Shown piece after piece: positions 2,470-10,519 of a stretch of 36,458 nucleotides of DNA; within the stretch, counting starts at the first letter, position 1, and every line of letters starts with the position of its first letter. The DNA comes from a virus. The position numbers and the translations under genes were made by a program. The notes under the pieces were generated by a model. The model saw only the letters and a program-made list of their open reading frames with translations. It did no database searches and was not told the origin of the DNA. The stretch is taken from positions 1-36,458 of IMG/VR virus record IMGVR_UViG_3300031455_000102; one strand, written 5' to 3'.

Positions 2470-3638
2470 CAGGCCGCCGCCCTGCGGGACGGGAGGCGGA
2501 CCTTCGAAAAGATGTCCATCATGTAGCGCCCGAAGGATTCGGCAAGCTCGGCCGGGGCTGCGTTGCCGAGCTGGCGCATGTTCTCCGTCCACGGGCCGAC
2601 GAACTCGTAGTCGTCCGGCAGGCCCTGCAGGCGCGCGGCCTCGCGCACCGTGAAGTAGCGCACGGAGCCATCGGAGAAGGCCAGCGTGTTCTCGCCGCCC
2701 GGGACGCCGTGGACGCCTGCCTTGAGCGCCTTCGAGGGCTCGTCGGCGGGGCTGCCGGTGTGGCCCTTGTAGGACCTCGCGCCGGGCTGGTGGACGTGGT
2801 TCAGGACCTTCGAGCCGCGGACCGGATCGCCGAGTCCTTGAATGGCGTCTCTGACGGTGCGCCATGGCAGGGTCTCCGGCTCCTTGCCAGCGTGCCTCAG
2901 GGATTCGGCCCTGGCGTGGTCGGCCGCGCTGCCCGGCCCCGAGGGCTTCCGCATGCCGTGGCGCTTCCAGTACTCCCCCGTCACCCACTGGTCCCACAGG
3001 AGGCGTTCCCGGGAGTGCGTCTGCGGAGGGGGAGCGACGGCGTCGGCCATGTCCTTGCGCACGCCCATGAAAAGGACGCGGTGGCGCTTCTGCGCCGCGC
3101 CGTAGTCGGCGGCGTTCACCTTGACGACGGCGACGTGGTAGCTGCCCTCCGGCTCGTGCCTGCGCAGCCGCTCGAGGTGCGTGGCCCTGTCCTCGTCGTC
3201 GCGCTGGACGAGCATCGGCTCCTTCAGCGACAGCCTGATCCAGTCCAGGTGGTCTGAGAACTTCGGGCGCAGCAGGCCGCGCACGTTCTCGAAAAGGAAA
3301 CCCGCCGGGGCGACCTCGCGCACGGCGCGGACGGCCTCGGGCCACATGTCCCTGGCATCCTCCTCGCCCTTGTGCAGGCCTCCGATGGAGAAAGGCTGGC
3401 AGGGCGGCCCGCCGGCGACGAATTCCGCCTTGCCACGGAACGCGGTCCAGTCCACTTCGCGAACGTCCTCGGAATGGACCTTCCAGTGACCGACGTGCTC
3501 GATGTCACGGCCGATGTTGTGCCGGACGTTCTCGACCGAATGCCGATCCCGCTCGACCAGCAGCAGGTGTTCGAACCCCGCGCGGGCCAGACCCAGCGCG
3601 AGACCTCCGCACCCTGAAAACAGTTCGACACTACGCAC
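2469..3638 (-). CDS. dcm: DNA (cytosine-5-)-methyltransferase of the restriction system
   Basis: A 389-aa C5-cytosine methyltransferase, cognate to the downstream GIY-YIG enzyme. Motif I is FSGCGGLALGL (7-17), motif IV GGPPCQPFS with catalytic Cys 80, motif VI FENVRG (116-121) and motif VIII ADYGAAQKRHRVLFMG. A target-recognition region follows, then motif IX TVREAARLQGLPDDY and motif X QLGNAAP. The start is a GTG with GGGGAGAA upstream at good spacing; translation from it begins V/M-RSVELFSGCGG, immediately at motif I, so nothing further upstream is needed. The upstream region has three GANTC sites (3662, 3680, 3712). No controller (C) protein gene is visible. Confidence 0.95.
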   Translation of the reverse strand: MRSVELFSGCGGLALGLARAGFEHLLLVERDRHSVENVRHNIGRDIEHVGHWKVHSEDVREVDWTAFRGKAEFVAGGPPCQPFSIGGLHKGEEDARDMWPEAVRAVREVAPAGFLFENVRGLLRPKFSDHLDWIRLSLKEPMLVQRDDEDRATHLERLRRHEPEGSYHVAVVKVNAADYGAAQKRHRVLFMGVRKDMADAVAPPPQTHSRERLLWDQWVTGEYWKRHGMRKPSGPGSAADHARAESLRHAGKEPETLPWRTVRDAIQGLGDPVRGSKVLNHVHQPGARSYKGHTGSPADEPSKALKAGVHGVPGGENTLAFSDGSVRYFTVREAARLQGLPDDYEFVGPWTENMRQLGNAAPAELAESFGRYMMDIFSKVRLPSRRAAA

Positions 3639-7637: not shown

Positions 7638-7905
7638 GCTGGTCACTCCCGAGGCGGACCTGCGCCGCAGGAAGAAGGACTGGGGCCGCGCGAGGAAGCG
7701 CTGCCCCCTGTCGGCGGCGGAAGTCGCGCAACTCGTCGGCCGGTCCGAGGACACGGTCCGCAAGTACAACGCCCGAGGCGGACTGACGCCGCCGTGGGAG
7801 GTGATCCGCGCCGTGGAGGAATGGAACCTCAGGCAGGCGATCGACATCTTCGGCGAGGCGTTCGGCGAGGATGCCATCACCTTGGTCACGGGGGCGGCGG
7901 CATGA
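7630..7905 (+). CDS. Small HTH protein, 91 aa
   Basis: A 91-aa basic protein with a helix-turn-helix-like core, LSAAEVAQLVGRSEDTVRKYNARGGLTPPWEVIRAVEEW (about 26-63), similar to short phage regulators and excisionase-like proteins. It starts at an ATG overlapping the previous gene by 8 bp and ends in an ATGA overlap with the methyltransferase gene. A role in regulating the operon or in DNA binding is inferred from the HTH only. Confidence 0.65.
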   Translation: MGRLVTPEADLRRRKKDWGRARKRCPLSAAEVAQLVGRSEDTVRKYNARGGLTPPWEVIRAVEEWNLRQAIDIFGEAFGEDAITLVTGAAA

Positions 7906-9143
7906 GGGTGCTGTCCACTTTCAGCGGCATCAGCGCCGCCAGCGTCGCGTGGAAGCCGCTGGGTTTCGAGTTCGTGGGCTATTGCGAACCCGAACCGCTG
8001 CCGTGCCACGTGCTCAACGCGCGGCTCGGCGCGACGGCGCCGATCTACCTGCCGGACGGCTTCCGGCGTTCGAACTACAAGCACCTGAACGGCGGGAGCA
8101 TCCCGAACTTCGGGGACATCGAGCAGATCAGCGACCGCGACCTTCGCGCGCTGGGTCCCGTGGATGTCCTCGAGGGCGGCAGCCCCTGCCAGGACTTCTC
8201 GGTCGCGGGGCTGCGCATGGGGCTGAAGGGCGAACGGGGCAACCTGACGCTCGAGTTCCTGCGACTCGCGATGCGGATGAAGAAGATCAACAACCTGAAA
8301 TACGTGGTCTGGGAGAACGTGGATGGGGTCAGGTCCGACGAAACGAACGCCTTCGGGAAGCTCCTTTCAGCGCTGGTCGGAGGACCCGAGCGTGGTGTGG
8401 TCGCTTCAGGAAGGGGATGGAGCCGGGGATGGACCAGTGCAGGTCACGCTGCTGGACCGGACGGAGAGGTGGCGTGGCGGATCATGGACGCACAGGGCTG
8501 GGGAGTTCCCCAGCGTCGCCGTCGCGTCTTTGTTGTCGGACGTCTTGGAGCCGGACCCGTCTGCCCTGGAGAAGTACTTTTTGACCCGCGAGGCGAAGGA
8601 TGGGGTGCTGAACCGGGCGGCGAAGCGTGCCGAGACACGTGGGAAGGGCCTGCCGGAGATGCTGGAGGCGGCGCTGCGGGCGGACTAGGTCCCATCGCCT
8701 TCATGGCCGGTCAGGGAGCGAAGGCCGGGTCGGTGGCCGCATCGGTCGACTTCTCGCCGACGCTCCGGTCCGCCGAAAGCGGATCGAACCGGACCCCCTG
8801 CGTGGCCTACTTCGATCGCCAAGGCGTGGACCGCTACGGGGATGCGGAAACCCAGGCATCGACGCTTCGGGCTTGCGAGAGCGCGGCCTACGAGACCGAC
8901 CTCGTGGTCTATCCCGACGCACTGAAACCCGTCGTGCGCCGCCTGACGCCGCTGGAATGCGAGAGGTTGCAGGGCTTCCCCGACCTGTGGAGCGAGGTCG
9001 GCTACAAAGGGAAAAACCGTCCGCCGGACGCGCCCCGCTACCGGGCGCTCGGGAACAGCATGGCCGTCCCCTGCATGGCGCATATCGGGCGTGGACTGTT
9101 GCGGGAAGACGCGGCGGCGCGGAAGGCGGCGCTGGCCGCCTAG
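7902..9143 (+). CDS. dcm: Phage-type DNA (cytosine-5-)-methyltransferase
   Basis: A 413-aa C5-cytosine methyltransferase of the orphan phage type, distinct from the one at 2469-3638. Motif I is FSGISAASVAW (7-17), with a Ser/Ala variant of the usual glycine-rich loop. Motif IV is GGSPCQDFS with catalytic Cys 96, motif VI WENVDG (137-142), motif VIII DAQGWGVPQRRRRVFVVG, motif IX LTPLECERLQGFPDLW and motif X YRALGNSMAVP. No restriction enzyme gene accompanies it, so self-protection or anti-restriction is the likely role. A separate +1-frame ORF (8323-8688) lies wholly inside it. It is the last gene of the + strand operon; its stop is 13 bp from the stop of the convergent spanin gene. Confidence 0.93.
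   Translation: MRVLSTFSGISAASVAWKPLGFEFVGYCEPEPLPCHVLNARLGATAPIYLPDGFRRSNYKHLNGGSIPNFGDIEQISDRDLRALGPVDVLEGGSPCQDFSVAGLRMGLKGERGNLTLEFLRLAMRMKKINNLKYVVWENVDGVRSDETNAFGKLLSALVGGPERGVVASGRGWSRGWTSAGHAAGPDGEVAWRIMDAQGWGVPQRRRRVFVVGRLGAGPVCPGEVLFDPRGEGWGAEPGGEACRDTWEGPAGDAGGGAAGGLGPIAFMAGQGAKAGSVAASVDFSPTLRSAESGSNRTPCVAYFDRQGVDRYGDAETQASTLRACESAAYETDLVVYPDALKPVVRRLTPLECERLQGFPDLWSEVGYKGKNRPPDAPRYRALGNSMAVPCMAHIGRGLLREDAAARKAALAA
8323..8688 (+). CDS. Overlapping ORF inside the methyltransferase gene (+1 frame)
   Basis: A 121-aa ORF read in the +1 frame within the methyltransferase gene. Its C-terminal half contains EFPSVAVASLLSDVLEP, then KYFLTREAKDGVLNRAAKR and a closing RGKGLPEMLEAALRAD. From memory, small phage proteins share the pattern (S)LS.ILE....KY.LS..A..GILRRA..RGK.LP..L..AL, often next to or overlapping Dcm-type genes, so this may be a true dual-coded gene. 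The methyltransferase frame is also clearly real here, since it carries motif VIII. The ATG at 8323 has GGGAG about 10 bases upstream, so it could be translated, but no expression evidence exists in the sequence. Function unknown. Confidence 0.55.
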   Translation: MGSGPTKRTPSGSSFQRWSEDPSVVWSLQEGDGAGDGPVQVTLLDRTERWRGGSWTHRAGEFPSVAVASLLSDVLEPDPSALEKYFLTREAKDGVLNRAAKRAETRGKGLPEMLEAALRAD

Positions 9144-9535: not shown

Positions 9536-9720
9536 TCTTCGCCGCCCCCGGTCTTGCGGCGCTGGCGCTTGTTGTGGACGGACCACAGCACAGACGCGAT
9601 GGTGACCACGGCGCCTGCGATGGTCGCCACGTCGTCGACGCTGAAGTCGGACGTGCCGAGGACGCTGACCCCGATTGCGGTAAGGGCGTGCCGGGCCAGC
9701 CCGGCGATGATCTCAGCCAT
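9532..9720 (-). CDS. Pam3-gp28-type phage holin
   Basis: A 62-aa membrane protein resembling the Pam3-gp28 putative holin family. It opens MAEIIAGLARHALTAIGVSVLG, the family's RHALTA start, then VDDVATIAGAVVTIASVLWSVHNKRQRRK, a second membrane helix ending in a basic tail. Two membrane segments and about 60 residues are usual. It sits between the endolysin and the spanins, with an 8-bp overlap to the endolysin and a 4-bp ATGA overlap to the Rz-like gene, so the lysis genes are translated as one unit. Its role would be to open the inner membrane at the time of lysis. Confidence 0.8.
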   Translation of the reverse strand: MAEIIAGLARHALTAIGVSVLGTSDFSVDDVATIAGAVVTIASVLWSVHNKRQRRKTGGGEE

Positions 9721-10519
9721 TTGCGACCTCCTGCGCGACGTTGGCGTAAGCCCGGGCGCGCTCACGGTTGACCCGGGACTTGTGGATGAGGACGACGGCC
9801 AGGACGACGAGCGCCACGGCCGCGCCGGCGGCGATCCACGGCATGACGGAATCCAACGTCGAGATGTCGAACTGCGAGGCCGAGCCCGCGCTGCCCGCTC
9901 CGGACGCCACCGCCGTGCCTTCCTGTGCGTGGGCCTTGCCCTCGGCCTTCGAGGACTCCGCCTTGAGTTCGCTGGGGACCGAAGCTTTCGGAAGATCCTT
10001 TGCCAGCGCCATCGAGACGGCCTTGGCCTCGGTCCCGGTGACCCGGCGCAGCCAGCCTTTCCCAAAGGTGGACCAGTGCGACAGGGCCTTCAGGAAGCCC
10101 AGCCGGTGCGCGCACATCGAGACGATGACCTTGCGCTGGTCGGAGGCGTTGGCGGCTCCGACGGTCTTCGGCCCGGCCACGCCGTCCTGCGAGACGCCCA
10201 ACGCCTTCTGGAGCCATTTGACCCCTCGGGACGGTCCCGAGTTCACCCCGCCGTCGAAGGTGGCGAGGTCGATGCCCGCCGGAAGCGCGTCGCCGCTGAC
10301 CTTGTTCCAGTAGTCGCGGCGGTAGATTTCCTGCAGCTCGGGATCGGTGATGTTGCGGACGCTGCGCAGCGGCAGGCCCTTCGACCTGCGGTAGGCGTCG
10401 TAGGTGCGCTGGATCACGCCCTTCATGGTGGCCCCGCCGGGGTCCTTGGGGTGGTTGGCCCATCCCCCTTCATGCTCGAGCACGATGGCCAGACAGGCCG
10501 CGTAGTTGCCAGCCGCCAT
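9713..10519 (-). CDS. GH108-family endolysin (N-acetylmuramidase) with C-terminal membrane anchor
   Basis: A 268-aa endolysin. The glycosyl hydrolase 108 domain occupies about 6-95, with the EGGW motif at 17-20 (catalytic Glu 17), followed by the peptidoglycan-binding region GVNSGPSRGVKWLQKALGVSQDG to about 165. After a Lys/Ala/Gly-rich linker (175-215) comes a hydrophobic helix at about 227-246 (PWIAAGAAVALVVLAVVLI) and a basic tail. The C-terminal membrane helix is uncommon among classical soluble endolysins and suggests the enzyme is held at the inner membrane until lysis. The octamer AAGGATTC occurs upstream (10540-10547, - strand). Start ATG at 10519; the Shine-Dalgarno is only moderate (GGGAGCGGCCC). 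Confidence 0.88.
   Translation of the reverse strand: MAAGNYAACLAIVLEHEGGWANHPKDPGGATMKGVIQRTYDAYRRSKGLPLRSVRNITDPELQEIYRRDYWNKVSGDALPAGIDLATFDGGVNSGPSRGVKWLQKALGVSQDGVAGPKTVGAANASDQRKVIVSMCAHRLGFLKALSHWSTFGKGWLRRVTGTEAKAVSMALAKDLPKASVPSELKAESSKAEGKAHAQEGTAVASGAGSAGSASQFDISTLDSVMPWIAAGAAVALVVLAVVLIHKSRVNRERARAYANVAQEVANG

Follow-up and report, generated by a model that had tools for sequence, protein, structure and literature searches.

C5-cytosine DNA methyltransferases (MTases) that consist of two polypeptides are known from M.AquI and M.EcoHK31I (PMC3404938), and the overprinted nested genes of viruses have been reviewed (PMC8227390). The DNA analysed here, the whole of which is referred to as the window, is a viral record from IMG/VR (IMGVR_UViG_3300031455_000102, positions 1 to 36,458) with a length of 36,458 bases, and one of its MTase genes contains an open reading frame (ORF) in the +1 frame. 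M.EcoHK31I reportedly involves an overlap in alternative frames. Few long nested genes that lie out of frame in dsDNA phages are known to have strong comparative support. Judged from sequence comparison, the best explanation of the window ORF is that it is a real overlapping gene and a member of a widespread, unrecognised protein family.

The host gene is located at 7902-9143 (+) and is translated in the 0-frame into a protein of 413 aa, which matched PF00145 of Pfam (2e-33), phrog_116 of PHROGs (1.6e-68) and TIGR00675 of NCBIfam (1e-32). Motifs I, IV (SPCQ), VI (ENV), VIII (QRRRRV), IX (RLTPLECERLQGFP) and X (GNSMAVP) were all found in this single frame, which, together with the PF00145 match, identifies the product as a C5-cytosine DNA MTase. 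The protein also matched phrog_864 (5.5e-30), a profile labelled DNA primase; given its C5-MTase-like region, this label may mislead. A second, unrelated C5-MTase lies at 2472-3638 (-) of the window (PF00145, 2e-49) and has no nested ORF, and a viral scan using it returned zero relatives. Another ORF of the window, at 9713-10519 (-) and with EHEGGWANHPKDPGGATMKG, is convergent with the host gene and presumably resembles a GH108-type endolysin.

The nested ORF spans 8323-8688 (+), from ATG 8323 to TAG 8686-8688, and encodes 121 aa inside the MTase, between the ENV motif and the target-recognition domain (TRD). The difference 8323-7902 leaves 1 modulo 3, which is the +1 frame, and the stop-free stretch around the ORF covers 129 codons, from 8299. 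A preliminary description had reported 121 open codons with particular motifs here, which translation reproduced exactly, and had placed motif VIII of the 0-frame at the same site, where VPQRRRRVFVV is indeed present. The conserved part of the product comprises residues 52-121 (8476-8685, +), including EFPSVAVASLLSDVLE...KYFLTREAKDGVLNRAAKRAETRGKGLPEMLEAALRAD, as delimited by a profile match (residues 52-120), the alignment and the helices predicted by AlphaFold. The alignment also revealed that the window copy is divergent, with inserted residues; the copy being divergent, decay of the +1 gene in this phage cannot be fully excluded.

The openness of the frame, on which the preliminary description had partly relied, carries no weight alone. 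When synonymous codons were permuted within each MTase, with the 0-frame protein and the codon counts fixed, 47% of the 3000 shuffles made for the window were as open as the observed +1 frame, so the length of the window ORF is by itself no evidence, and judging the ORF on open length only was rejected. The sequence, however, is not random: on a profile of the +1 frame from which the window had been left out, the window ORF scored 65.9 bits, whereas the shuffles averaged 4.1 (SD 4.8, maximum 28.2). In a single-sequence search, it matched the family profile excluding the window with E=1.1e-22, and hhalign gave a probability of 99.5% for its relation to the +1 family.

Homologues of the +1 product, for which a search with E below 1e-5 had been proposed, were found, without exception in an identical +1 register within a C5-MTase. 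Matches to the 121-aa product were obtained by tblastn in 116 phage records, with E down to 1e-11. In eight annotated loci (L001-L008), including that of the P1-like phage SJ46, the match is offset by +1 from a longer annotated MTase CDS, and an overlapping gene annotation is absent from all eight. A scan of viruses with the +1 motif supplied 80 further loci, and the +1 ORF was located within an MTase ORF in 89 of the 89 viral loci examined; one candidate member, L010, was a false positive and represents an unrelated protein. The scan of bacterial and archaeal genomes contributed 80 loci, all in MTases except one decayed fragment, from Bacillota, Pseudomonadota, Actinomycetota, Armatimonadota, Synergistota, Verrucomicrobiota, Acidobacteriota and one archaeal MAG, with the phylum names taken from the record titles. 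The dmt gene of phage P1 carries the +1 ORF (NC_005856, about 66728-67201), which is missing from the hand-made annotation of this model phage. The P1-like phage vB_EcoM-813R1 (L258, 1741-2232) has a frame-broken dmt, and its +1 ORF is annotated as a hypothetical protein.

As an ascertainment control, the search for MTases used just their N-terminal part, as an alignment covering window 7902-8300, a region upstream of the ORF. In all 80 of the 80 viral MTases chosen in this way, the +1 frame is open for 117-282 codons and matched the +1 profile, three being truncated by contig ends, and the motif common to them is SLSDILE..YFLSxKACxGILRRAEKRGKxLPxxLxxAL. Their mean P(open) was 0.038, and their mean +1 score was 93.7 as against 10.4 in the shuffles.

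All inspected family matches sit in the MTase type of the host gene, apart from the decayed fragment. In eight family-holding genomes, QRR-type MTases scored 84-125 bits on the +1 profile, whereas ordinary MTases with another motif VIII (PQ.RERV and the like) gave no match or ≤25 bits; the second MTase of the window scored 0.9 bits. This confinement of the overlap to one MTase family suggests, by inference, that the MTase is the older gene of the pair. L241, the one family copy that seemed to lie outside an intact MTase, was rejected as a decayed MTase fragment (about 690-1300) joined to a ParB-like N-terminus, with a stop in the +1 frame. Other unusual arrangements were an MTase whose catalytic PC/Q motif is the exact site of an intein-like insert (L187, 1311-3281) and, in the Mycobacterium phages Thibault and Schatzie (L293 and L294), an HNH element that interrupts the MTase gene, where the boundaries of the annotated intron are undetermined.

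The codon-phase tests delimited a segment at 8526-8684 (+) in which the phase is inverted, with conserved third and variable first positions of the 0-frame. Among 75 representatives of the N-terminus-chosen MTase set, 0-frame third-position diversity was 0.21-0.38 over this segment versus 0.48-0.73 in the rest of the gene, and amino-acid diversity was 0.28-0.49 in the +1 frame and 0.45-0.79 in the 0-frame, the order being reversed elsewhere. Across 53 close, mutually independent pairs, the substitution counts for 0-frame positions 1, 2 and 3 were 367, 137 and 260 in the core and 445, 278 and 1941 outside it, so the share of third positions was 0.34 versus 0.73 (Fisher p 8e-84); the shift is from the third to the first codon position of the 0-frame, which is the +1 wobble position. 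Naive omega in close pairs was 0.43 for the +1 frame and 0.73 for the 0-frame in the core, 2.44 and 0.15 outside the core, and 1.10 and 0.29 in the 200 bases upstream of it, so it is chiefly the C-terminal part of the +1 product that is under selection, its N-terminal ~50 residues being poorly conserved. In that C-terminal part the +1 frame is, by these counts, more constrained than the MTase frame. On the same comparative evidence, purifying selection on the predicted +1 amino-acid sequence is shown across many phyla, in phages as well as prophages, and the register between motifs VI-VIII and the TRD is always the same. The preliminary description had held both frames to be under selection and had proposed a test for reduced 0-frame synonymous change over 8323-8688; dual coding is supported, but strong +1 selection is limited to the C-terminal ~55-65 residues instead of all 121 codons, and the reduction, strong over about 8526-8684 both in the MTases chosen without the +1 frame and in the 53 close pairs, does not extend over the whole ORF.

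It might be argued that the +1 frame merely appears conserved through the conserved 0-frame protein (motif VIII and the linker) and GC-richness, as the window is GC-rich, the openness of its ORF is unremarkable and motif VIII of an unrelated MTase scores 25 bits on the +1 profile. However, shuffles that preserve the 0-frame never attained the observed window score, and over most of 8526-8684 the 0-frame amino acids vary more than those of the +1 frame, in the ranges given above. The inverted substitution phase already refutes such apparent conservation, and we attach essentially no likelihood to it. A conserved DNA or RNA element, be it a structure, a packaging signal or a regulatory site, could also conserve synonymous sites and so explain the third positions; yet the change is periodic and concentrated at the +1 wobble position, the +1 frame is without stops in divergent sequences, and what is conserved is the +1 amino acids. 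Such an element is already strongly disfavoured and keeps only a very slender chance.

For the +1 protein itself, translation would begin within the MTase mRNA, at a start codon close to ENV that would be ATG 8323 in the window and the conserved ATG-CAA at -56 nt in many relatives, and the internal start would yield a short polypeptide, disordered at its N-terminus and with a C-terminal mini-domain of three helices. ATG-CAA ('MQ..') is found about 56 nt before the ENV codons in many relatives and is common in the +1 family without defining it, many other relatives being without it. The window has no such ATG-CAA upstream of ENV, where a +1 stop is found instead; its sole ATG is 8323, just after ENV, a start that differs from the position used by most relatives. 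This ATG is preceded by a Shine-Dalgarno (SD)-like GGGAG (8308-8325, +; anti-SD duplex -7.3 kcal/mol), whose function is inferred and which derives from the WENV codons TGG GAG AAC GTG. SD pairing was stronger for the first +1 ATG near ENV, at -5.1 versus -2.8 kcal/mol for other ATGs in the genes (p 1e-21), a p-value that is inflated because the loci are related and not independent. An in-frame stop upstream inside the MTase ORF was observed in 247 of 250 loci, and a possible start in 250 of 250. Programmed ribosomal frameshifting, in which ribosomes pass from the MTase frame to the +1 frame, would instead produce a shortened MTase ending in the +1 domain, and no separate small protein, in agreement with the constraint being strongest downstream of motif VIII, with the weakly conserved N-terminal part of the ORF and with the single, non-standard ATG of the window. 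Against this, many loci have start codons accompanied by SD-like sequences, often in the form of ATG-CAA at a constant spacing from ENV, and frameshifting seems to us quite improbable. Internal initiation instead of frameshifting is the probable route, as an inference made in the absence of expression data.

A different arrangement was discovered in ten loci, where the 0-frame MTase stops after motif VIII, 140 nt after the start of the +1 core in most and 260-284 nt after it in L219 and L223, and where the +1 ORF continues in frame through the TRD and motifs IX-X, so that the +1 product carries the second enzyme half as a fusion. The C-terminal half of the L182/L195 group is under purifying selection in the frame of the +1 ORF (omega 0.08-0.33), while the single pair L219/L223, which is 31% identical, has an omega of 0.83. 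The +1 ORF of the split loci starts with ATG after a strong SD-like sequence (for example L195, -8.8 kcal/mol, and L223, -11.4 kcal/mol). The simplest reading is that this ORF is translated to provide the second enzyme half; initiation within the C-terminal half, or frameshifting, is not excluded. These loci illustrate how a one-chain enzyme could in nature become a two-chain one.

AlphaFold predicted a disordered N-terminus and a C-terminal helical mini-domain for the +1 product, with helices at residues 71-74, 82-85, 89-106 and 112-120 in the window copy, and pLDDT values of 94-96 over residues 101-130 in a relative (L169) and 86-92 over 91-120 in the window copy. No match to the +1 product was found in Pfam, NCBIfam or PADLOC, none to its window copy in PHROGs and none to the family profile in a sequence search of the PDB. 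The best Foldseek hit in the PDB, to sigma-factor helices, was non-significant (E 3.1), and VIA-align reached a best Z of only 3.3 over 37 residues, which is uninformative. A library of viral structures returned an MTase-named protein of 521 aa and gp104 of phage Thibault, both borderline (E about 4e-3).

The product may work with the MTase whose mRNA it would share, acting in its assembly or modulating its activity or specificity, which is a less sure inference. This partnership is favoured because the family is never found apart from the MTase and is joined to the DNA-recognising half in the split loci; that all the inspected family matches lie in this MTase type, bar one decayed fragment, likewise favours an MTase-linked function. 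We put the partner role at somewhat short of an even chance. The lack of stand-alone copies fits simple overprinting in place too. An independent phage effector, acting for example in host takeover or counter-defence and sharing the MTase DNA merely for space or co-expression, would suit a small protein with a disordered N-terminus and no known fold match, but the pattern scans, which did not require an MTase, detected no stand-alone copy, and the product is fused to the TRD-IX-X half in ten loci, so that we consider an effector unlikely.

Taken as a family, dual coding is almost certain on the comparative evidence, and the window copy is very probably still coding. That window 8323-8688 is a nested gene made by internal initiation is fairly likely, its translation being unproven without expression data. 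Dual coding is well supported by the evolution of these sequences and unsupported by any expression experiment. A more far-reaching proposal, that a near-universal, unrecognised overprinted gene occurs in one whole family of phage C5-MTases, including P1 dmt, that the enzyme has the product of this gene as an obligate partner and that single-chain MTases became two-subunit enzymes by way of this frame, remains tentative and is more doubtful than the partner role alone. The evidence of selection spans very divergent sequences, and the overlap affects the annotation of very many phage and prophage genomes; earlier MTase knockouts that removed the overlap region would have deleted both genes.

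Part of the family has already been catalogued. In PHROGs, 40 of the 79 members of phrog_16143 (139 aa, labelled DNA methyltransferase) match the +1 product (best E 1.2e-12), and Thibault gp104, an 81-aa hypothetical protein that is a called piece of the +1 ORF, matches it in structure, yet neither was recognised as a +1 overlap of an intact MTase. Apart from this one unexplained cluster of PHROGs, no curated family describing the product was found, and no description of the overlap was found in the literature, with subscription papers and preprints outside our coverage. Like M.AquI and M.EcoHK31I, the locus is a C5-MTase locus giving two polypeptides, and in the ten split loci (L182, L195, L198, L219, L223 and others) the break follows motif VIII, as in M.AquI, the second polypeptide beginning in another frame inside the first. 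Unlike in those enzymes, the 0-frame MTase of the window and of 210 of 250 loci carries motif IX/X itself, and the +1 product there is an extra protein with its own domain rather than a missing MTase half; motifs divided between two polypeptides, which define a two-subunit enzyme, are met only in the ten split loci and not in the window, whose 0-frame holds I-X. As in overprinted viral genes, a new protein is read from a second frame of a gene that is more widespread and presumably older. The present family differs from these in its occurrence across several bacterial phyla, in dsDNA phages as well as prophages, in being present in every sampled member of one enzyme family and, in the split loci, in being joined to the C-terminal half of its host gene.
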